A stretch of DNA of 64,000 nt, from NCBI RefSeq assembly GCF_003952485.1, contig NZ_CP034447.1, positions 434,001 through 498,000 of the forward strand, in the 5' to 3' direction. Below, one piece after another: positions 2,851 through 27,153 of this stretch. A program made the position numbers and the translations under genes. The notes beneath the pieces were generated by a model. It searched no databases and was not told where the DNA came from. It saw only the letters and a program-made list of their open reading frames with translations. The DNA comes from Mesorhizobium sp. M1E.F.Ca.ET.045.02.1.1 (lineage in GTDB: Bacteria > Pseudomonadota > Alphaproteobacteria > Rhizobiales > Rhizobiaceae). Position 1 is the stretch's first letter; each line of letters starts with the position of its first letter.

Positions 2851-5550
2851 TCAAGTTGCCTGATGATCATCAATAAGCTCATTCACCCTCTGTTTGCGGT
2901 GTATCTCAGCGTGCGCCCAACGCTCCCGTATTTCCGCGCATTTCAGCTGCATTTCGCCATACATCTTCTTTGCTACAGAAAGCTGATCATCGGTTGATCG
3001 TTGTCCGGGTCCTCCTCCGAACTGCAGAGCATCCCTGCATTCTTCAAGACTCTCCGGCAACACGCCAGTGAGGTGGCTTGCCAACTCGCTTCGGCGCTCC
3101 GCAACCGAGCTATCCAGAGACAGGCGTTGGGCGATCTCACCAATTAGTGTGTGGGCCTTCCTGAAAGGAACGCCTCGCGACGCCATCCGTTCTGCGGCGA
3201 CTGCCGTCATGGGTGAGCCATCTTCCAGATTTTCACGCATTGACCGCACGTTGAAAGACATGAATTTCACAATGAGTGATGTGAGGGTGATGGCCCTCTT
3301 AAGGGCATCTTCTGCAAGGGCTAATGGAGAGCAACCGTAGTTGCTCGTTTCGATCGAGTTGCTGAAAGGCGATTTGCAGGTGGCTGTTGCCGCAGAAACG
3401 TAGGCCCCAATCGCTGTGCTTGCCGACCCCTTGACGTGTTCAAGCAAAAATGGGTTCTTCTTTTGGGGAAGCATGGAAGAGCCACCAGCAAGATAATGAG
3501 GAAGGTCAATGAGCGCGAACTCCCTGGTCGTCCAAAGCTGCAGGTCCTGGGCCACACGGCTGAGCAAAATTGCAACGCTAGCGAAGAGTGAAAGCCCTTG
3601 TAGGTGATGGTCACGGCTTGCAACCGCATCAAGCGAGTTGAATGACGGCAATTCAAATCCCAGAAGATTTGCTGTCTTCAAAGGGTCGATAGGCAGGCTG
3701 GTGCCTCCGCCGGCACCAGCTCCCATAGGGCAGTTCTTGATGTCTTCCAGGAGGCAATGGAGCCGCTGGCGCTCGCGCCGCAGAGCGAAGAAAACGCTGA
3801 GCAGGTAGTGCCCTGGCGATCCGGGGATTGCAATCTGGTACTGACTGTACAAAGGAGCAACAAATCTCGATGCTTCCTCCACGCGCTGAAGCAGGGCATC
3901 TTGTGCAATGCCTATTTCTTGGGAGATAGCACACCCAGCTTCCCGAAGGACCAGCAGAGAGATGGTCGCGTTCAAGTCGTTGCGGGATCTTGCAAGGTGC
4001 AGCCAGCCGGCCTTTTCCGGGCCAGCTCTGGCGGCAAGTTCTGCCTCATAGGCAAGGTAGAGGCCGCGCGGAGCATCGCGTCCCTCCAAAGACTGAAAGC
4101 CCTCGTCCTGGAGGTGAAAGATGTGCTTCAAGAGATCGGCAGCGACTTCCCGGTTGATCAAGCCCTGATCCGCGAGCATCACCAGATGTGCTTCATCTAT
4201 GGTCGCCTGGTGCCGCAGAAGGCGACCGTCACGCGAGATTTCGATAGGCGGAGCGAGCAACTTCATCGCTTCGGGATGTAGGTTCCACCTGCCCTCGCTT
4301 GCCCCAGCGACTTGCTTGTTGTCCGATTCGCCAGCAGCCTCTTCCATATCCATCACCGTGGAATCGATCATCTGTTGAGCTGCTATAACGGCGGCGTCGA
4401 GTTCATCAGCGACGCCTACGGCGTAGGCTACTCGGTCTCTGAAATCGCCATTTATTTGAACATCCTCCCCCCCATATTTCAGAAGCCCCGCTTCGGGCAC
4501 TGTCGGCCCTGGAGTTCGAGAAAAGCTCAGGCGTTTGAGCTTCCCGGATTCGTGAGCAAGGCGGAAACGGATAGCTCCCGCTCTTCCGCCCGCCCGCGGA
4601 GGCGTAAACCCTTGTCCCGCGTAAAGATTAATGACCATATCAAGGATTGAGGTGCGCAAAGCGTGCGACAGCATGACTGGAATCATTCCTCCAGCCAGTC
4701 TGGGATTGACCTCAATGATGACCGGGCCTGGCTCCGCTATTACGAACTCTACATGAGCCGGTCCGAACTCCAGGCCGAGCGCTGATACCGCACTCACGGC
4801 AAAACAGGCCAGTTCCTGGAGGGAGCGCTCCGGGAGCGGTGCCGGGAAGTCGTGCCCTACCTCGACGAAGCAGGGAGGCGGGCCCTTGTGCTTTGCAAGT
4901 ATTCCAAGGCAATGCAGGGTTCCATCGTTCGCAATTATCTCTGCGGAGTATTCCTTACCCCTTATATATTTCTGGATGAGGACATCAGGGCTGCACAGAC
5001 CTACCTGATCGAGTAACGCGCCCCTTGCACTCTCAAACGCCTTGATTGCGGCTGCCGCTGTATCGCACAACCGCACGCCACTACTACCACTACCGGAGAC
5101 CGGCTTCACCACCACCGGCAGAGTGGCTTGGGCAAGTATCTTCTCCACGTCTCGGACGGAAGTGGCCAGTCGAGTCTCAGGGATCGTGATTGATTGTCGC
5201 TGCAACTCGGCCGCTTGCTTCCATTTGTTCCGGCAGGTAGCTATAGCCTTCGGATTGGCTGCTGGTAGCCCGATGGCCGTCGCAGCACTTGACGCTGCTT
5301 CCACAAAATAATCCGACGACGAGTATATTCCTGCCAGCCTTCCCAACTTGGCGGCGACCCCGATGAGTTCGTCCGGACTACGCGTTTCAGCTTCGACAAC
5401 GTGAGCGACCGAGTCCTTCAGAAACGGATAACGCGCAGGATTACGCGTAACGAGATATGGTTCGAAGCCAAGAGCTCGGGCCCGTTTCATTAATAGTTCG
5501 CCGGTGCCCGTCGTGTTGCTTTCCACGAAAAGGAAGCTACCTCGGTTCAT
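2851..5550 (-). CDS. ATP-grasp ligase / argininosuccinate-lyase-like fusion
   Basis: An 899-residue two-domain enzyme. The N-terminal half is an ATP-grasp carboxylate-amine ligase: a phosphate-clamp stretch ([14 protein letters not shown]), a metal-binding end motif [10 protein letters not shown], and a PreATP-grasp start ([10 protein letters not shown]). The C-terminal half is a fumarase/argininosuccinate-lyase fold: [11 protein letters not shown] matches the HTGRSRNDQ region and [11 protein letters not shown] matches the family signature. The start is ATG 5550, overlapping the upstream stop as TGATG with GGAGG upstream; a longer frame to 5619 is less likely. Family knowledge suggests the lyase half cleaves a C-N bond releasing fumarate while the ligase half forms an amide. 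Joined in one chain and last in the operon, they may deamidate an aspartyl-amino acid adduct and couple the product. The substrate is not shown by the sequence. Confidence 0.85.
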
Positions 5551-6608
5551 CAAGAATCGTCCTCCAGCAGGCTTAAGACAGCTTCCCGGCTTTTCCGATT
5601 CCAACGATATCGGTTCCATGGCGGAAGAGCGGTCGAGGGATGCTCTTCACTGGACGGAGCGTCCAGAAGAGCACCTTCATGCAGACATCCATTCTGCTTG
5701 AGCCACTCGTGGTCATAAACAGCTTCGGCATAGCGGTGGCCTTCATCTGCACATATGACGACCACGGTTTCTCCTGGATACTGCCGAGCGTGCCAACGCC
5801 CAACGATGTAGCTCGCCCCGGAGGTCGGACCGGCGAAAACGGCGTGCCGCTCATGGAGGGTATGCGTTGCAGCAAATGCGAGCGGAGCCGAAATGAGATG
5901 CACGTCGTCATACAGTTCATGCTTCACATTCTTGGGGACAAGACTGTTCCCCAGGCCCCGCAGTTTCCGGTCGCCATCCGGTTGGCCAAAAATGACGCTA
6001 TTGAAGGTATCTACTCCGATCAGGCGCGCCTCCGGGGCTTTTTGGCGAAGGCGCTCTATCGTTCCGCAAGTAGAGCCACCAGACCCCACAGAACCGACCA
6101 AAGTTATGTCGGCGTCCAGCATCCCCGATAGTTGATCAGCAAAAAGCTTGTAGGCTGCGGGGTTGTCCGGTGTTTCGTACTGACGGGGCCAGAAACAGGA
6201 ATGGCCCAACTGTCTCATCTTAGCGTGTAACGCGTCCAGCCGGCTTCGTTGGTAACCACCATCCTGGGCCTTTTCAGTTACTATGACGACTTCGGCTCCT
6301 AGAGAGCTCAACCTGTTTTCGAGACCTTTGTCCATCACCGGGTCCGTGAAGATCTCAAGCTGGAATCCACGTTCTCGGCAAATGACGGCCAGCCCCAGTG
6401 CGAAGGTTCCGCTTGAGGTCTCGAGAACTTTCATGCCGTGCGTCAACGTCCCTCGAGTCACCGCTTTCTCGATAATGTACTTCGCAGGGAGAAGCTTCAT
6501 GAAAGCGAACTGCGCGAGATAAAGGTTTGTCCCGCACCTAATAATTCTAGGAAGAGCATACGCATCAGAATATCCGGAGAATAGAAGGTGTTTGCGAGCA
6601 GCGTCCAT
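5550..6608 (-). CDS. Cysteine-synthase-fold PLP-dependent enzyme
   Basis: A 352-residue fold-type II PLP protein. The substrate loop [12 protein letters not shown] corresponds to TSGNTGIALA of cysteine synthases, and [13 protein letters not shown] is the phosphate-binding glycine loop; the Schiff-base lysine is probably in LPAKYIIE. It is divergent from housekeeping CysK/CysM and has about 40 extra C-terminal residues. Family members in natural-product pathways (for example SbnA) do beta-replacement on phosphorylated or acylated hydroxy-amino acids. The start ATG has GAGG eight bases upstream and lies 10 bases after the kinase stop. Next to a threonine-kinase-like protein and a lyase, replacing the phosphate of O-phosphothreonine by an amino nucleophile is the natural inference. 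Confidence 0.8.
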
Positions 6609-6618
6609 ATTTCTTACC

Positions 6619-7668
6619 TCATCGGCAGCCAGTCATGGTCCGGTAAATTCTTGGCGAGTTGTCGAATCGCGACACATGTGCGAGCACGGACTGAATCTTT
6701 CGTGTAAAGTCATCCGCGGTTCGATCAAGCAGGATTCCAATCATGGTGCCGCTGTGCGCGACTATCACCCCGAGAGCGTCGGTGGCCTGCGATGCTTTCA
6801 ACATCGAGTTCAGATGCTTCTTTGGAGTCCGCTCCTGATGCAGGAGAGCGCTGGCAGTGGCTATTTTGCCTATCGTCGCCGCGTCACCCCGCGGAATTGC
6901 TATCCGTGCGCGGTCCAGGAGTCCTTGATATTCTGCTCTTCGACTGGCGGAGATTTCACCTCGCCGTTGATCATAATCGACGGTTTTGATCGTCCCTCCT
7001 TCATCGATACCAACGATCGCAAGCGGCGGCATTTGGCCAAGGAACGAGAGAAGGTTACATGCTCGCTGTTGGTATGCAACCACACCCGGGTACATCACCC
7101 CGTCGGATGGCTCGATGTCCGCCATTAGCTTTTCGATCAACAGTGTCCGGATTCTACGCTTAAAGCAGCAGGCGATTGACCGTGCAGTCGCAACAAGATC
7201 GGCCGACGAACTCGCGAGTCCTTTGCCTTCAGGGAGCTCAGATTCCAAAAGGAGGATTCCTCCTGAGGCGCCGAGCGCAATCACGAGATTCTCAGCCAGC
7301 CGTTTCGCTTTGATTTTATGTGACGGATAAACGCTTACGGATTGTGTGCCTGCCATCGGCATGAAGTGAGCTCGCGCAAAGAGCGCGATAGGCATTGTGA
7401 TCAAGAAGTGAGGGTCCCCGGGAACGGAACCGACCGGCAACTGTCCTTGGAGCAACTCGCCGAATGTGCCGCAACAAAGCGCGTCGCTAGAATAAACCCG
7501 TGGCTGTTGTCCGTCGTCGGCGATATTCTGGGCCGCATCTACGCCATCAAAGGTCTGATGATACAGGTACGGCCTCCAAACTTCATCGGCGGCCGCCTCG
7601 AGAAGTTCTCTAGTCGACATGCTCGCCCCGCCGGAGCCGATAGGATGGGTAGAATTTTGGATCGCCAT
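6619..7668 (-). CDS. GHMP kinase, L-threonine kinase (PduX)-like
   Basis: A 349-residue GHMP-superfamily kinase. Motifs: CCGTFGELLQG at residues 65-75 (PduX-type GTCGELVQG), the ATP loop PEGKGLASSSADL, and EPSDGVMYPGVVAYQQR, which resembles the PduX segment EPTDG...PG. PduX phosphorylates L-threonine in cobalamin side-chain assembly, but no cobalamin genes occur here, so this copy probably serves the local cluster by activating threonine or a relative. ATG 7668 is used (GGAAG just upstream); a second in-frame ATG at 7620 is possible. It is separated by 280 bases from the oxygenase gene upstream and by only 10 bases from the PLP enzyme gene downstream. Confidence 0.8.
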   Translation of the reverse strand: MAIQNSTHPIGSGGASMSTRELLEAAADEVWRPYLYHQTFDGVDAAQNIADDGQQPRVYSSDALCCGTFGELLQGQLPVGSVPGDPHFLITMPIALFARAHFMPMAGTQSVSVYPSHKIKAKRLAENLVIALGASGGILLLESELPEGKGLASSSADLVATARSIACCFKRRIRTLLIEKLMADIEPSDGVMYPGVVAYQQRACNLLSFLGQMPPLAIVGIDEGGTIKTVDYDQRRGEISASRRAEYQGLLDRARIAIPRGDAATIGKIATASALLHQERTPKKHLNSMLKASQATDALGVIVAHSGTMIGILLDRTADDFTRKIQSVLAHVSRFDNSPRIYRTMTGCR

Positions 7669-7832
7669 ATCACTTCCGCGTCAGGTACATTGAGTTGATC
7701 AGCCACTACGAGAACCTGAGGGCGCTGGCTGCCTGAGCAGGCGCCACAGTCCGCCGCTCCGGCAAACACGGGGCTGGGCGGACGCAAAAGTCACTGCCAA
7801 GCCATTTTACTGAACTCAACAAGTCAGGTTCG

Positions 7833-7867
7833 CCCCCTCCGGAAGAATGGAAAAACGTCCGGAGGGG
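7833..7867. repeat. Perfect inverted repeat inside the biosynthetic operon
   Basis: CCCCTCCGGA (7834-7843) and TCCGGAGGGG (7858-7867) form a 10-base GC-rich stem with a 14-base A-rich loop. It sits in the only long gap (7669-7948) of the operon. On the minus strand no T run follows, so it is not a standard intrinsic terminator; it could be an mRNA processing or stabilising hairpin, an operator, or part of a promoter for the kinase-PLP-ligase half. Confidence 0.6.
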
Positions 7868-7948
7868 TCTGTCATTGAAGGTTCCCCGCTATGACGGAGG
7901 TGACGCCTTCACTATCGGCACAAAACAGTCGCCGCTATCCACGGCCTA

Positions 7949-8788
7949 TCAGGTCCACCAGAGAACAAGATCCGGCCGCGCAAACCCGAAAAAGCAATTC
8001 AGCACCAGGCGACGCTTTCCGTCGCCTGATTGACCGGTAACCCCGTGAACGAAGCCGCCATCGATTAGGGCGATATCCCCGGCCTTGAGCTGGAACTCGC
8101 GGCACGGGACGGCCTCAAGATAGGCTGCCGAATAGGGATATCCAGTGGTCTCCACACCCTGCGACTTTCGGTCCGCAACTGTCGGCTTATGGCTCCAGAG
8201 CCTCAGATTGCCCCCGTGCTCGGACATGCTGGGATAGAGGTTGAGCGCTGCGACCGTATTGTGCGCCACCGCAGAAAGCTCGTAATCATCGCCAGCACGT
8301 AAGACTTGAGCGACGTCGTCGTGGGGATCCAAGGAAAACGTGCCACTGCCTGACCAACTGAGAGCGCGACAGACGTTGGCCTGACCGCGTTCCGAACGGG
8401 CGAGCCGCAATTCAATACCCTGGTTGTGAAGCTCTCGCTTCAACGCGCCGAATATTGCTCGGACCGGGTCAACCAAATTCTTAAAAAGGGCCTCGACGTA
8501 AGGTCGCGCAGCTTCCGCATCTGCGAAATAGGTGGCTGCATCCTTCCTGTAGTGAGATGCGCCGACATATTGTCCGGGCACACCATCTCTACGCTCTCTG
8601 AGACCGGAGCTTCCAATAAAGTTCGTGGTGATCTCCTCGGCTACTTCGGTGCTGAAAGCTTGCTTGACGTGCAGAGCGGTGAGCTCACCTTTCAGGACCG
8701 AGATGATCTCCCCCGTGTTGATCGACCCGGTCCGTTCTTTGATCGAAACCGGGGAGATGGCTGGCACTTGAGTTATCTGCTTAGGCAT
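7949..8788 (-). CDS. 2-oxoglutarate/Fe(II)-dependent oxygenase
   Basis: A 279-residue non-heme iron enzyme with a double-stranded beta-helix. The facial triad is readable: DPHDDV supplies His-x-Asp, and FVHGVTG supplies the distal His, followed by KRRLVLN with the expected 2OG-binding Arg. Asp is present, so it is a hydroxylase-type rather than a halogenase-type site (which has Gly or Ala). The start is ATG 8788, which overlaps the aminotransferase stop by 8 bases and has AGGAG seven bases upstream; a longer frame to 8845 lacks this. It probably hydroxylates an amino acid or peptide intermediate of the cluster. The exact substrate cannot be inferred from sequence alone. Confidence 0.82.
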   Translation of the reverse strand: MPKQITQVPAISPVSIKERTGSINTGEIISVLKGELTALHVKQAFSTEVAEEITTNFIGSSGLRERRDGVPGQYVGASHYRKDAATYFADAEAARPYVEALFKNLVDPVRAIFGALKRELHNQGIELRLARSERGQANVCRALSWSGSGTFSLDPHDDVAQVLRAGDDYELSAVAHNTVAALNLYPSMSEHGGNLRLWSHKPTVADRKSQGVETTGYPYSAAYLEAVPCREFQLKAGDIALIDGGFVHGVTGQSGDGKRRLVLNCFFGFARPDLVLWWT

Positions 8789-10037
8789 TGTCTTGCTCCT
8801 GTAGTGCGTGATCAAGGATGGTGATGCCACGATCGAGTTCGGCATCGGTGATGGTTATCGGCGGGAGGACTTTGATAACGTCGCGATTTGGCCCCGAGGA
8901 TTCGATAAGAAGGCCATTTTCGAATGCGACATCGTGCACGCGGCCGACAAGTGCCGGTGAACGGCATTTCAGGCCGGCCATCAGGCCGCGCCCGCGCTTT
9001 TGTTGGATGTATCTGGGAAATTTCGCAACCAGGCGATCGAGGTGCGTTTGCAGCCTGACGGCTGTCCGCTCGACACCTGCAGTAAATTTCCTATCCGACC
9101 ACATCTTGCACATGGCTCCTGCCGTCACGAAGGCGAAATTGTTGCCTCTGAAAGTCCCGCTATGTTCTCCGGGCTTCCATATGTCCAAGTCGGGTCGAAT
9201 CAGAACGATGGAAAGCGGGCTACCTGAACCGCTTAGGGACTTGGAAAGACACACAATGTCCGGTTCGATTTTTGCGGACTCGAATGAAAAGAAATCGCCA
9301 GTTCGGCCCGCACCCGCCTGAATATCGTCGACGATAAAAACAATGCCGTGAGTACGGCAAATGCGCTGAATTTCCGTGAGCCAAGCTGCGGATGCGGCGT
9401 TCATGCCGCCTTCTGCCTGGATGGTCTCCAGAATGATTGCGGCCGGCTTTTCTATTCCGCTCCCCGGGTCGCTCAAAACGCAGTCGATGTAACTGGCGGA
9501 ATCGAAAGCTTGGCTCGGATAGCCGTCATAGGGAACACGGATCACATCGTGGCGAGCAACGCCTCCCAGTTCCCTGGTTGAGGCCGAGCCCGACACCGCT
9601 AGAGAGCCGAGCGACATGCCGTGGAACGCATTCGTAAAGGCCATGACGCTCGAGCGGCCGGTGTATTTTCGCGCCAGCGCCAGAGCCGCTTCGTTGGCGT
9701 TCGTGCCGGTCGGCCCAGGAAACTGAATCTTGTACGAAAGGCCTCTGGGTTTCAGGATCCAATCGACGAACCCTTCAATGAAGTCACGCTTTGCCGCCGT
9801 ATGCATATCAAGTGACAGAAGAATGTTCTCACCGACGAGATATTCAATCGCCGGCGCCATGATATCCGGATTGTTGTGCCCGTAATTGAGCGCCCCGGAC
9901 CCAACTAGGAAGTCGATATATGCGTTACCGGACTCGTCCCAGATGGTGGCCCCAAGTGCCCTCGCAAAGACCGCGGGAAACGACCGGCCATAGCGACGAA
10001 CGTTGGACTCATGGGCCGTGAAAGGGTCGGTGTTCAT
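8781..10037 (-). CDS. Class III aminotransferase, diaminobutyrate (EctB)-like
   Basis: A 418-residue fold-type I PLP enzyme related to diaminobutyrate-2-oxoglutarate aminotransferases (EctB). The opening has the pattern of EctB proteins (YGRSFPAVFARALGATIWD), FPGPTGTNANEAALALARK is the substrate/cofactor region, and the PLP lysine is in CLSKSLSGSGSPLS. EctB makes L-2,4-diaminobutyrate from aspartate semialdehyde, but no ectA or ectC is present, so it is not an ectoine pathway. Start at 10037 is favoured by AGAGGA six bases upstream over ATG 10055. It is the first gene of the operon that runs to 2851. Confidence 0.85.
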   Translation of the reverse strand: MNTDPFTAHESNVRRYGRSFPAVFARALGATIWDESGNAYIDFLVGSGALNYGHNNPDIMAPAIEYLVGENILLSLDMHTAAKRDFIEGFVDWILKPRGLSYKIQFPGPTGTNANEAALALARKYTGRSSVMAFTNAFHGMSLGSLAVSGSASTRELGGVARHDVIRVPYDGYPSQAFDSASYIDCVLSDPGSGIEKPAAIILETIQAEGGMNAASAAWLTEIQRICRTHGIVFIVDDIQAGAGRTGDFFSFESAKIEPDIVCLSKSLSGSGSPLSIVLIRPDLDIWKPGEHSGTFRGNNFAFVTAGAMCKMWSDRKFTAGVERTAVRLQTHLDRLVAKFPRYIQQKRGRGLMAGLKCRSPALVGRVHDVAFENGLLIESSGPNRDVIKVLPPITITDAELDRGITILDHALQEQDNA

Positions 10038-10386
10038 ATTGAGTCCTCTGCACATAGGTCGTCAAAGAAGAGAGCTGTTTAATGGCTAGTGGTTTGCGGT
10101 AGATGTTCGTCATCTAACATTGAGAGCAGAATGCCGGAGGAAGCTTTGGTTGGTCTGGTGATGCCGGGATCCTCATCGAATATTGTTGGGTTGCGTTGCC
10201 CTCCATTCGGATGCCTTCGGAGAATGTGCTGCAACAGGATGGTTTCTAAAGCTTCCGCGAAAGCACCGCTACTATGGCATCAGGTAGTTGACGTACCCAC
10301 CCATCGCTACCCATAGCGCCTCCGGACAATGAATGGGTCCAAGGACGATTAGCAGGGTCGCGTCGCCAGAGGTTGTGTAGCTCGGC
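10038..10386. other. Region upstream of the biosynthetic operon
   Basis: About 350 bases that should hold the operon promoter. A TGT-N10-ACA match occurs at 10104-10119, but no GG-N10-GC sigma-54 core lies between it and the start codon, so I regard it as chance. No clear -35/-10 pair was recognised. Confidence 0.4.
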
Positions 10387-11096: not shown

Positions 11097-11939
11097 TCAG
11101 GTCCGGTCGTTTGGGTCGGCGAATTCACACATTCTGCAAAGCAGAAAACCATCCGCTCCATTCATGCGGTCGACGATTTCGCGAAAAACTGGCTTTTCAA
11201 ACAGAGCGGAGTAACCCTCATATAGAAGGTTGCCCAATACGTGACGCCGTTCAAAATCCATGGAGCACAGGGTAACGTCGCTGTTTGGAAGAAGAACATT
11301 CCGATACTGTCGTTCGTCCACGCAGGTTAGGGCTCCGACCACTGGCTGGCGTGGTGCAACGATCTTAGGGTCGACGCTTCCACCCCTACTGCTCATGGGC
11401 CGCGCTCTTATCAGTGCTTCGGTAGGAATAATGTCGGCTATATCTGGGTGGGGCTCGCCCAAAGCCACGAACCGGATCAAGGGGATATCCGCGTCGACGA
11501 GTTGACGAACCAGATCGCGATACTTGTCTCCGACCAGGCGGCTGTTCATGTAGGTGCCATCATCGAAAACATGAACCACGAATACGCCCAAGCGCAAGGC
11601 TTGCAATCGTTGCAGGTCCTCCCCGTTCATTCCCACCAGCGTCGTAAAAATCCTGATGCCATGGCCTTTGGCGAAGGCGTGCTCCACCATTTCGGTGCAG
11701 TCCGGATTGAGCCAAGGTTCGGAGTATCCCGCAAAACCAATGTCGACGGAAGCCGGTACGCGGGCTAGACACCGCTTGAAATCTTCAAGACCCAGATGAC
11801 TCGCATGAGACACTTTTCTTTGCCGGACCGCGAACTTGTCCTGGGGACAATATGAACATCCTACGACACATCCCGTGGTCGTCGTTATCTCCAAAACCCT
11901 GCCGGCTGTGTTTGCTAAGCGAAGTTCCGGCAAAATCAC
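11097..11939 (-). CDS. Radical SAM protein with C-terminal cysteine motif
   Basis: A 280-residue radical SAM enzyme. The cluster motif is C24-VVG-C28-SY-C31, and GYSEPWLNP is the glycine-rich SAM contact seen in this superfamily. The C-terminus has SPASM-like spaced cysteines (C-SMDF, then CRMCEFAD), suggesting a second iron-sulfur site. Substrate unknown. It is the nearest intact minus-strand gene upstream of the biosynthetic operon, but 1 kb of debris separates them, so membership in that pathway is a guess. Confidence 0.75.
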   Translation of the reverse strand: MILPELRLANTAGRVLEITTTTGCVVGCSYCPQDKFAVRQRKVSHASHLGLEDFKRCLARVPASVDIGFAGYSEPWLNPDCTEMVEHAFAKGHGIRIFTTLVGMNGEDLQRLQALRLGVFVVHVFDDGTYMNSRLVGDKYRDLVRQLVDADIPLIRFVALGEPHPDIADIIPTEALIRARPMSSRGGSVDPKIVAPRQPVVGALTCVDERQYRNVLLPNSDVTLCSMDFERRHVLGNLLYEGYSALFEKPVFREIVDRMNGADGFLLCRMCEFADPNDRT

Positions 11940-12275: not shown

Positions 12276-12573
12276 TGTTCTCATGCGGGTCAACCCTCAC
12301 CCTATATTGCCGCACCTCGACCAGCAAAGGCCGTGCCAGTGCGCCTGGCGCGCAGTTACTGCGTGATGGGCTTCGAAAAGCCCGACAGGCCCAAGACGCT
12401 CCGCTGTTTTGAACCCGACATGTTTTCTGACGGCTGTCAGATTTGGACACACATCACTCATGCGTCAGTCGCTTAAGACGGAATGGCGTGCTGAGTTCTG
12501 CAAATTCGCTGAGAGTGGGCGGTCATGACAGGGTGGTGTTCAACGTCACCGATTCCCTGGAAGGAACGCCGCC

Positions 12574-12785: not shown

Positions 12786-13583
12786 CTACTGCCGTTCGAT
12801 AATCCCAAGTTCCAAAGCTTTTACAACAGCTACCGTTCTGCTGGTCGCATCCAACTTCCGCATTACATTTTTTAAATGGAAATCTATCGTATTTCGTGAT
12901 CTGCCTAAAATAGTTCCTATTTCCCATGACGATTTTCCTTGTGACACCAAATCAATGCACTCTATTTCTCTCGCAGACAGGCTATGAACTTGTTCTGACG
13001 CAGTCGTAGTGTCGAACTTCGTAACCATCAGATGAAACCGTAGCGCGGCCATTTGCAGGTAGGTGATCGTTCTATTTAGCAATTCGCAGTCCGAGGATTG
13101 AGCAAAACTCATAAACCTAAAGCTGTCAGCAGGGCCATGTAAAGGGACGGTAACGCCTGACCTCAAGCCGAATGTTGCTGCTTCGTCCAAGACGCGGCGT
13201 CCATCTTCAGTTATGCTTTTATCGGTATACACCTCGCTCCATCGAAAGGCCCCTGCCTCCTTTCGACCTTTCTTGATGAGCGGGTCTATTTTGGCATAGC
13301 CCATTCTCGAGTAGCGCTCCTGCCATTCAGCAGGATAATTCCACATCACCACAGAATCCTGTCGGTTCGGCTTGAAAACCCTCTGTTTTGATGCGAGCGG
13401 GCCATAGGCAATCCAAGGGCAATCGAACTTCAGCGCAAACGCGGACAACAGTTCGAACAACCGTTCGGATTGAGCGATACCATCAGTCATGTTGAGGAAT
13501 AGACCTAACTCGAGTTCAATCCGCGGGAGTTTCACGATCTCTCCTTCAGTTGCGTCCTCAGGTGCACAGCTCCAGCCCAGCAT
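12786..13583 (-). CDS. LuxR-family quorum-sensing-type regulator (solo)
   Basis: A protein of up to 265 residues with an autoinducer-binding domain (aromatic/acidic positions in PWIAYGP, the W-Y-D pattern of RMGYAKIDPLI, and FRWSEV) and a C-terminal LuxR helix-turn-helix (LSAREIECIDLVSQGKSSWE to LDATSRTVAVVKALELG). Such proteins bind acyl-homoserine lactones and activate or repress target promoters. No luxI-type synthase is in the window, so it is a solo here. The start is uncertain: ATG 13583 lacks a ribosome site and an internal ATG at 13490 is possible. Its C-terminus abuts the IS256 scrap. Confidence 0.8.
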   Translation of the reverse strand: MLGWSCAPEDATEGEIVKLPRIELELGLFLNMTDGIAQSERLFELLSAFALKFDCPWIAYGPLASKQRVFKPNRQDSVVMWNYPAEWQERYSRMGYAKIDPLIKKGRKEAGAFRWSEVYTDKSITEDGRRVLDEAATFGLRSGVTVPLHGPADSFRFMSFAQSSDCELLNRTITYLQMAALRFHLMVTKFDTTTASEQVHSLSAREIECIDLVSQGKSSWEIGTILGRSRNTIDFHLKNVMRKLDATSRTVAVVKALELGIIERQ

Positions 13584-13735
13584 CGCAACATGCGTAGTGA
13601 ACGGATCGACAGCCGGAGTTCTCTTCCGCCACCTAAAGACGTGGCATCAAGAGTCGTGCCACCTTGCGAGCGGAGCTTTTTCAGGTTGTAAACCGACTGG
13701 AGCGAGGTACCCAGGAGGCGAACCGAACAGCACTG

Positions 13736-13894
13736 TGTCGGGGAGCGCACAATCCGACAGTCGAGCATTCGATTGACCGGATGTGGGCAGGAAAGTATTC
13801 GCGGCGCGTTGGATCGCGGCTGACTTTCTCCAGGCTCGGCAACCTGCTGAATTTGTCCTTCGGCTGTTCCCGCTCAATTGGCACGACCTTTGAA
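13736..13894 (+). promoter_or_regulatory. NifA site plus damaged sigma-54 promoter before the ABC exporter
   Basis: TGT-CGGGGAGCGC-ACA at 13736-13751 fits the NifA upstream activator consensus. At 13878-13894 stands TTGGCACGACCTTTGAA, identical to the -24/-12 consensus except that the -12 GC has become GA (13892-13893). The 130-base spacing suits a NifA-dependent promoter. The changed -12 base predicts weak or lost activity. Confidence 0.5.
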
Positions 13895-20896: not shown

Positions 20897-20998
20897 CAGC
20901 AATGGGCGTGCCAACCCCTCTCAGCTCCGGTAAGCGGCGGGGAATGCTTTGAAAATTCTCCACGAGCCCAAACACGGCCGATTGTCGTGAACCTGACA
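20897..20998 (-). promoter_or_regulatory. NifA/sigma-54 promoter of the thioredoxin-fdxB operon
   Basis: On the minus strand TTGGCACGCCCATTGCT (20898-20914) matches the -24/-12 consensus with GG and GC 10 bases apart. About 80 bases upstream, TGT-CGTGAACCTG-ACA at 20983-20998 is a perfect NifA upstream activator site. Confidence 0.88.
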
Positions 20999-25854: not shown

Positions 25855-27153
25855 TTATATCCCGCTGCCCATTTCTTCGGCTACGAGGTCGGGCCGGCGC
25901 TCGATCAACGTACGGCTGATGAGGCCGAGATGCTCGGGATTGGTGCATGGCGCGCGCCCCAGAAGGCTGTCCAGGATGCGGCGCGCTCGCCAGGCCAGCA
26001 GGCCAAAGTTCGGATCAGCCAGCCCGCGCTGTCCAAGGCAGGCGTTCTGAACGAAAAGGCGTCTGTCTCGCGGTCCGTCCCAGTACACCGAAAAATCCTC
26101 GCCGGTGGCGAGCTCATTGCCGATCTGCTCGAGGCGATCTGCGATCGGTTCCAGGAAGTCCGGCAGCGCGTTCTCGTACCCCGTGGCCAGGATGACGATG
26201 TCGGCGGTTACTTCTCCGATGTTATCCATGCCGCGCTGCAGCGTGAGCCTGTGCCCCGCCCCTGCGTTGATGCAGCGCGACACGTTGCAACTTGGCCGCA
26301 GTTTGATGTCGCATTGGTGTGGCTCGAGAAAGGCGTGGTGATAGAGCGCCTGATAGACCGCGCGCAACGTGCTTTCTGAAATCCCATCGGAGGCAAGCGC
26401 GAAACGACGCAGGAACAGCTGGCGATGCACCTCGCTCATGGCCGCAAAACGATCCGAAAAGCAAGGCGTGAACAGCTCGTTTGTGAACGGGTGGTCGTCG
26501 AAAGGCATCTCGCGCGTCAAGACCCAAGTGATCGCCGCGGGCCGCCGTTCTTTCGGCCGGCCGACAAGGTGCAGCAGCAGCTCGGCTCCCGACTGTCCGC
26601 CGCCAACCACGCAGACATGCTTTTTGTGTACCTCAGGATGGATATGCGCTAGGTCTGATGAGTGGAACAGGTTGGGTCCAGTCCAGCCATGAAACTGAGG
26701 CGGAATTTGCGCCTGCTTGCCTATGTCGATGACGAGGTTTCTCGCATCAAGGACCGCGTTGTCCGTCCGCACGCGAAACTCGCCGTCAAAGCGGATTTCG
26801 CGAACGGCCTCGCCGCCACGGACAAGCGGATTCTTCTGGAACGCCCAGTTGAGATATTGAGCGAACTCGGCTCTGAGCACCCCGTGAAATTGCGCATTGA
26901 GGAAATTGTAAAGACGCCCGTTCTCGTGGAGGTAGTTTACGAATGTGTAGGCTGATCGCGGATTGACCAGAGTAACCAGATCCTGGAAGTGGCCGACCTG
27001 GAGCTCCGCGCAATCGAAAGCGCTGCCTGGATGTCCTCGGAAATCAACCTGCCGATCCAGGAACAGTGCCCCTTGCGCAATCTCTTCCTGTATCTGACAC
27101 GCAAGGCTCAAATTAGACGGCCCAGCACCGATACCAATGCAAAAGAGGTCCAC
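25855..27153 (-). CDS. Flavin N-hydroxylase (L-lysine/L-ornithine N-monooxygenase family)
   Basis: A 432-residue FAD/NADPH enzyme. The FAD-binding start CIGIGAGPSNLSLA, the NADPH motif VVGGGQSGAELLLHL and the closing ATGYENALP fit the IucD/PvdA/SidA family, which hydroxylates the side-chain amine of lysine or ornithine for hydroxamate siderophores and related products. The start codon is GTG with GAGGAG ten bases upstream. No siderophore synthetase gene lies nearby, so it is an orphan in this window; it might serve the diamino-acid cluster at 2.85-10 kb, but that is speculation. Confidence 0.85.
   Translation of the reverse strand: MDLFCIGIGAGPSNLSLACQIQEEIAQGALFLDRQVDFRGHPGSAFDCAELQVGHFQDLVTLVNPRSAYTFVNYLHENGRLYNFLNAQFHGVLRAEFAQYLNWAFQKNPLVRGGEAVREIRFDGEFRVRTDNAVLDARNLVIDIGKQAQIPPQFHGWTGPNLFHSSDLAHIHPEVHKKHVCVVGGGQSGAELLLHLVGRPKERRPAAITWVLTREMPFDDHPFTNELFTPCFSDRFAAMSEVHRQLFLRRFALASDGISESTLRAVYQALYHHAFLEPHQCDIKLRPSCNVSRCINAGAGHRLTLQRGMDNIGEVTADIVILATGYENALPDFLEPIADRLEQIGNELATGEDFSVYWDGPRDRRLFVQNACLGQRGLADPNFGLLAWRARRILDSLLGRAPCTNPEHLGLISRTLIERRPDLVAEEMGSGI

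Follow-up and report, generated by a model that had tools for sequence, protein, structure and literature searches.

Described systems related to the cluster

Diaminobutyrate transaminases of the EctB family include Dat of Rhizobium leguminosarum, which makes diaminobutyrate in nodules. The WelO5 halogenase, HilA and the SadA-type amino-acid dioxygenases belong to a common fold and family of 2-oxoglutarate (2OG)-dependent Fe(II) enzymes, and the pyridoxal phosphate (PLP) enzymes SbnA and CmnB belong to the staphyloferrin B and capreomycin systems, respectively. Relatives of all of these are encoded side by side in the DNA analyzed here, a stretch of 64,000 nucleotides from Mesorhizobium sp. 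M1E.F.Ca.ET.045.02.1.1 (bases 434001-498000 of a 7.35-Mb single-contig genome; the window). The five genes in question lie on the minus strand between positions 2851 and 10037 and encode an EctB-type transaminase and a 2OG-Fe(II) enzyme (the pair, module A), followed by a GHMP-fold kinase, an SbnA-like PLP enzyme and an ATP-grasp/argininosuccinate-lyase-like fusion protein (the triad, module B).

For the uridyl-peptide clusters (pacidamycin, mureidomycin), a kinase, a PLP-dependent beta-replacement enzyme and a lyase resembling argininosuccinate lyase (ASL) have reportedly been proposed to form 2,3-diaminobutyrate. The available text of one study describes a mureidomycin cluster gene as involved in 2,3-diaminobutyrate formation (PMC4572928). 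The triad follows the same proposed logic, as compared by description and not by sequence; in contrast to these clusters, ligase and lyase form a single fused protein in rhizobia, and no nonribosomal peptide synthetase was seen beside the triad. In the literature searched, no description of the pair or the triad in rhizobia was found.

The cluster is a junction of two modules

All five genes were present, overlapping or close to each other as the first-pass annotation had named them, and each gave a clear family match in profile searches. Module A consists of the EctB gene (8781..10037, minus strand, 418 aa; the open frame begins at 10055) and the 2OG gene (7949..8788, minus strand, 279 aa), which share 8 nt. 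Module B consists of the kinase gene (6619..7668, 349 aa), the PLP enzyme gene (5550..6608, 352 aa) and the fusion gene (2851..5550, 899 aa; the open frame begins at 5619), all on the minus strand, with a kinase-PLP spacing of 10 bp and 1 nt shared by the PLP and fusion genes. Gene starts were set from homologue lengths and sequence at 8788 for the 2OG gene and at 5550 for the fusion, the latter by homologue length and a TGATG overlap with the PLP gene, whereas the EctB start was kept at 10037. The close spacing assumed for all five genes is broken between the 2OG stop and the kinase start by a gap of 280 bp with no assigned gene (7669..7948).

DNA similarity to other loci changes at this gap. 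Window DNA was matched on the 2OG side by 51 of the 52 other pair loci, and 47 of these 51 matches stop at or before the 2OG stop, while those of L042, L070, L072 and L082 extend further. Among 24 triad loci, 17 match on the kinase side and seven show no match; 16 of the 17 matches begin 9-45 bp before the kinase ATG. Since pair-locus similarity ends at the 2OG stop and triad similarity starts before the kinase, the cluster is the junction of two modules, with the boundary inside the 280-bp gap.

The two modules also occur apart. Of the 27 triad loci examined, which include one strain twice (L034, L118), 24 lacked an intact pair, and in L025 a 2OG fragment was located about 3 kb beyond the triad. 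The triad followed the pair in one of 53 pair loci, taken as the G474 strain; four of these stretches (L036, L060, L065 and L083) end less than 1 kb from the pair, where a following triad would not be visible, and L060 and L085 have broken genes. Kinases with 85-86% identity were found in four genomes without a 2OG match (G524, G422, G528 and G448). Modules A and B were adjacent on the same strand in three genomes (G000, G467 and G474), which have identical kinases. The five genes are two separately inherited modules placed end to end and not one conserved pathway.

The proposal of a single operon or pathway unit was thus not supported, as pair and triad are apart in nearly all genomes. The full five-gene order was found in G000, G467 and G474, and pair and triad were mostly separate in other genomes. 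Occurrence of the genes in unrelated contexts, named beforehand as an argument against the proposal, was observed for the modules but not for single genes.

The explanation we favor, with roughly even confidence, is that of two independent amino-acid modules placed end to end, A for a hydroxylated diaminobutyrate and B for a 2,3-diamino acid that is ligated. Module B would have been inserted just downstream of A.

Distribution of pair and triad

For 146 genomes of the genus, a genome counted as carrying the pair when its 2OG match had E < 1e-100, which applied to 77 of the 80 that gave a 2OG match at all; G455, G457 and the G523 remnant were dropped, and G439, with internal stops, was kept. 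The triad was scored where the kinase was 70% or more identical (21 of the 51 genomes giving a kinase match), and nif by a nifH match with E < 1e-100. A strong nifH match was present in 100 of the 146 genomes. The pair marker was found in 77 genomes, and all but one of these (76) were nif-positive (Fisher p = 8e-19, with kinship ignored); the triad was found in 21, of which 20 were nif-positive. The transaminase and hydroxylase, considered extras of the triad in the first-pass annotation, are the more widespread, nif-linked part. The 2OG and nifH matches were listed on one contig in 54 of the 77 pair genomes. In the window, about 29 kb separate the pair from nifH; the setting is the symbiosis island of a root-nodule bacterium. 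Wider samples gave 2OG matches in nine of 397 genomes of the order and seven of 398 of the phylum.

These data bear on the alternative of one merged pathway, in which EctB would form 2,4-diaminobutyrate, the 2OG enzyme would hydroxylate it at C3, the triad would aminate the product to 2,3,4-triaminobutyrate and the ATP-grasp domain would join this to another amino acid. Such a pathway would agree with the direct adjacency of A and B on one strand in G000, G467 and G474, and with the requirement of the triad chemistry for a beta-hydroxy amino acid. In its favor, a GntG-type aldolase, a possible source of beta-hydroxy amino acids, was located near three of the 27 triads and in the triad locus of Streptomyces NBC_01707. 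However, the identical kinases reduce the three adjacent cases to one event, an intact pair is missing from 24 of the 27 triad loci, close triads occur in pair-free genomes and the boundary between the modules is sharp. Moreover, among nif-positive genomes the pair was found in 11 of 20 with the triad, compared to 65 of 80 without it (Fisher p = 0.02, ignoring kinship), and this lower frequency in triad-bearing genomes speaks against one pathway. A merged pathway is considered unlikely.

Module A: EctB and the 2OG-Fe(II) enzyme

The transaminase scored 625.5 bits with TIGR02407, above the equivalog cut-off of 552.2, and the closest solved chains were the EctB-type transaminases 6rl5 and 9s1q. 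Compared to EctB and Dat systems, the window ectB has no ectoine synthase nearby and has a constant 2OG partner gene. Ectoine synthesis was rejected as a function: no EctC was found near ectB, and the one match genome-wide is at 2.29 Mb (ectA was not searched).

For the 2OG enzyme, PF22814 (WelO5) gave 42.8 bits (cut-off 27), and the fold also matched WelO5. The best NCBIfam model was HilA, an L-isoleucine dioxygenase, with 85.9 bits, under the cut-off of 500. When the predicted structure was compared to solved structures, the WelO5 fold appeared nearest, followed by an N-substituted L-amino acid dioxygenase; BesD, a lysine halogenase, was not among the matches listed for this model. A single-sequence look-up among solved structures gave no match for the 2OG enzyme or the kinase. 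The metal site of halogenases is H-x-G/A, which leaves room for the halide. The window enzyme carries H156-x-D158, with H248 and R260, and the H-x-D site was present in 13 of 13 aligned 2OG sequences. A WelO5-type halogenase was ruled out by this hydroxylase-type site in place of H-x-G.

EctB directly precedes the 2OG gene in all 53 loci from GTDB species genomes (50 Mesorhizobium, 1 Aminobacter and 2 Bradyrhizobium). Nine plasmid records had a 2OG match, of which seven were examined (H7 and H8 were left out). Five rhizobial records, one already among the 53, contained the pair, an S. americanum record held a 2OG fragment only, and a Streptomyces record had no EctB match.

Based on these families and motifs, the product of module A is likely a hydroxylated 2,4-diaminobutyrate. 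EctB would turn aspartate semialdehyde into 2,4-diaminobutyrate, and the 2OG enzyme would hydroxylate this, probably at C3, for incorporation into a small nodule metabolite.

Two variants of the pair were observed. In Rhizobium jaguaris (L012:10744-12834), EctB and the 2OG enzyme form one open frame of 696 aa, either a natural fusion or a frameshift. The genes flanking a distant pair in G044 (L145) encode a MetRS-like protein, a cupin, a Lys/Orn N-oxygenase, a methyltransferase, a LysE exporter and a PF10014 dioxygenase.

Module B: kinase, PLP enzyme and ATP-grasp/lyase fusion

The kinase matched PF00288 with 33.8 bits (cut-off 22.3) and also PF08544, and its predicted structure resembles mevalonate and homoserine kinases, consistent with a GHMP fold. 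Database names of its relatives are L-threonine kinase or PduX-related. The label of a PduX-like threonine kinase, given in the first-pass annotation, agrees with the predicted GHMP fold and with these names, threonine specificity being a prediction.

The best NCBIfam model for the PLP enzyme was TIGR03945 (SbnA) with 212 bits, below the cut-off of 349.95, and the best solved relatives were SbnA (5d87, 5d84) and CmnB (8if7). The enzyme is thus nearest SbnA and CmnB and not CysM, whose kinship had been named beforehand as an argument against the proposal. In contrast to SbnA, which has an SbnB-type dehydrogenase as partner, the neighbor of the window enzyme is a lyase.

Over its full length, the fusion protein matched NF002563 with 1178.6 bits (cut-off 625). 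An ordinary argininosuccinate lyase ArgH was rejected, since the lyase domain scored 219.9 bits with TIGR00838, under the cut-off of 279.5, and S-Q replaces the T-H of the ASL motif T-H-x-Q. EDDS lyase (6g3d, 6rx8), a single-domain member of the ASL superfamily, has T-Q at these positions and hence the same glutamine in place of the histidine, whereas its overall similarity to the window domain is about that of true ASLs. The glutamine, with an intact signature, was found in seven of seven fused proteins aligned, while three of three unfused proteins keep T-H. This replacement fits a fumarate release from an N-alkyl-aspartate. In the available text, EDDS lyase is described as coupling fumarate to diamines, among them 2,3-diaminopropionic acid (PMC10792612).

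Kinase, SbnA-type PLP enzyme and ASL-like lyase are encoded together in all 27 loci with the close kinase family, which supports the triad as a set. We infer the substrates, the products and the order of steps of both modules from these families. In module B, the kinase would phosphorylate a beta-hydroxy amino acid, with threonine as the simplest candidate; the PLP enzyme would exchange the phosphate for the amino group of aspartate, and the lyase domain would release fumarate to leave a 2,3-diamino acid. The ATP-grasp domain may ligate this to another amino acid. The phosphate, aspartate and fumarate logic proposed earlier thus holds up for the triad, given the EDDS lyase-like glutamine, but not for the five genes as a unit.

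Longer SbnA-like proteins (533-541 aa), extended at the C-terminus, were found at L009:18923-20524 and L154:6854-8479; those of Mesorhizobium 131-3-5 and Paraburkholderia phymatum are 65% alike. In P. phymatum, the gene for this protein directly follows a GHMP kinase gene.

Expression and regulation

In Mesorhizobium loti R7A, msi260 is described in the available text of PMC3538637 as a putative diaminobutyrate transaminase gene, numbered next to iscN/iscU (msi262-263). Strain 131-3-5 and G415, the latter taken as MAFF303099 from matching pMLa coordinates, both have the gene order queE-iscU-iscN-ectB-2OG, which supports orthology of msi260 to the window EctB. An msi260 lacZ fusion gave 1339 units in nodules, compared to 855 for a nifH fusion; the next two columns, 686 and 5.1, are by the text the nifA1 and nifA2 backgrounds, and broth values were below 20 Miller units (PMC3538637). 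The msi260 mutant was fully effective. Regarding a NifA promoter, the text of this source states that none precedes msi260, whereas its table lists the gene under such promoters. The searched text of PMC4070662 and PMC3750425 does not mention the transaminase.

Rhizopines were compared by three traits, namely synthesis in bacteroids under nif control, dispensability for fixation and catabolism by free-living kin. Two of them, nodule expression under nif control and dispensability for fixation, are on record for msi260 in the available text (PMC3538637).

On the symbiotic plasmid of P. phymatum, ectB (Bphy_7266), a GHMP kinase gene (Bphy_7478) and a PLP enzyme gene (Bphy_7479) are analogues of the window genes. 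In nifA-mutant nodules their log2 changes were −7.58, −8.24 and −6.85, respectively, and diaminobutyrate falls, according to the available text of PMC8305402. The identity to the window genes is 29-47%, and a search of two stretches left the 2OG, ATP-grasp and lyase queries unmatched.

A NifA-type promoter was found on the cluster strand about 2.3 kb upstream of EctB (12323..12420, minus strand), with an upstream activator sequence (UAS; 12405-12420) and an exact −24/−12 element (12323-12338). Its sequence, CTGGCACGGCCTTTGCT, is also listed among the NifA promoters of R7A, there without an annotated gene. Three such paired sites were present in the window, compared to an average of 0.01 when two-base blocks were shuffled 100 times, and paired sites within 4 kb upstream of EctB were found in 12 of 53 loci. 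Taken singly, RpoN-like sites with up to two mismatches were at chance in the window (35 found, 33.6 expected) and exact UAS matches mildly above it (13 and 7.4). No terminator-like site was found between the promoter and EctB; such sites were at chance in the window (10 and 8.3 expected). We infer that the cluster may be transcribed from this promoter by read-through to EctB. A weak terminator-like site at 7931-7945, just past the 2OG stop, makes read-through from A to B uncertain.

A NifA promoter directly at EctB was rejected, as a scan of 60 upstream stretches, each of 420 bp and taken from 59 loci plus the window, gave no RpoN-type pattern. UAS-like TGT-N10-ACA was present in 16 of these stretches, 14 from one related group, and an alignment of 24 EctB upstream regions showed no clear common element beyond the start region.

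Further sites were noted. Two RpoN-type sites in the window (20898-20913 and 47012) have a UAS-like match at most 220 bp upstream. Triad loci L125 and L126 contain an RpoN-type site 199 and 450 bp before the kinase, respectively, and at these two loci the triad may be under nif control of its own.

Module A might also supply 2,4-diaminobutyrate, hydroxylated or not, for nodule nitrogen or beta-alanine/pantothenate metabolism in the manner of Dat, instead of for a special metabolite. In the available text, Dat produces diaminobutyrate in bacteroids of pea and promotes growth on homoserine (PMC10228743), and the NifA dependence of ectB and of the diaminobutyrate level in P. phymatum nodules (PMC8305402) points the same way. 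However, a supply role leaves the constant hydroxylase partner (53 of 53) unexplained, the msi260 mutant was fully effective (PMC3538637, available text), and the pair neighborhoods abound in ligases and diverse modifying enzymes. This role is therefore rated as improbable.

Neighborhood of the pair

In stretches of up to 10 kb around the pair, an ATP-grasp ligase family, whose tested member has an L-amino-acid-ligase C-terminus, was found in 16 of 53 loci. A GMC oxidoreductase was present in 15 and a second 2OG enzyme in 19 of the 53. A more far-reaching reading regards the pair as the core of a nodule-only metabolite family (3-hydroxy-2,4-diaminobutyrate) that is decorated in each lineage by exchangeable downstream modules, like strain-private rhizopines; here, the triad would lead to 2,3,4-triaminobutyrate joined to another amino acid. 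This is regarded as quite improbable. A siderophore or metallophore, in which diaminobutyrate and 2,3-diamino-acid units would form a carboxylate chelator, is very unlikely. In its favor, six of 53 loci encode a further EctB, an IucA/IucC synthetase and a GNAT enzyme directly downstream of the pair, and the named protein closest to the PLP enzyme, SbnA, comes from a siderophore pathway. However, the six loci (L046-L050, L054) closely resemble each other, the remaining 47 stretches, of which some are short, showed no IucA/IucC family member, and the triad had no apparent SbnB-type neighbor (no profile search for SbnB was made).

Upstream of EctB on the same strand, a small radical SAM/SPASM-like gene (11097..11939, minus strand; weak PF04055 and PF13186 matches below the cut-offs) has counterparts in 24 of 53 pair loci. 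A LuxR-type regulator with an autoinducer-binding domain (12786..13583, minus strand; PF03472, PF00196) belongs to a family with a member within the stretch in 35 of 53. One-mismatch RpoN-like sites at 13646-13661 and 13879-13894 lie just upstream of the LuxR gene and of a divergent ABC transporter gene, with a UAS-like site at 13736-13751 between them. A Lys/Orn N-monooxygenase gene is located at 25855-27153 of the window, and its family is also listed as NifA-regulated in R7A (msi280).

Implications for nodule metabolism

Several points weigh against the favored explanation of two independent modules. In the three genomes where A and B are adjacent, both modules are intact, as a merged pathway would also predict. 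HilA, the nearest amino-acid model for the 2OG enzyme, is far under its cut-off, and the substrate is a predicted one. The PLP enzyme falls under the curated SbnA cut-off, and fumarate release by a lyase without the ASL histidine may not be assured on the assumed substrate. The likely orthology of msi260 is derived from gene order in other strains. As for the first-pass annotation as a whole, the gene naming was right and the triad chemistry is plausible, whereas the single-pathway claim was unsupported.

The gene pair is nearly confined to nif-carrying strains of the genus. In the available text, its likely R7A counterpart shows more nodule lacZ activity than nifH and depends on nifA2 (PMC3538637). 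From this nif linkage and strong nodule expression, nodules likely hold an undescribed hydroxylated diamino acid or a conjugate of it. If true, the triad would be a compact route to 2,3-diamino acids outside the actinomycetes, and the varying downstream modules would give a natural example of combinatorial metabolism in symbiosis islands.

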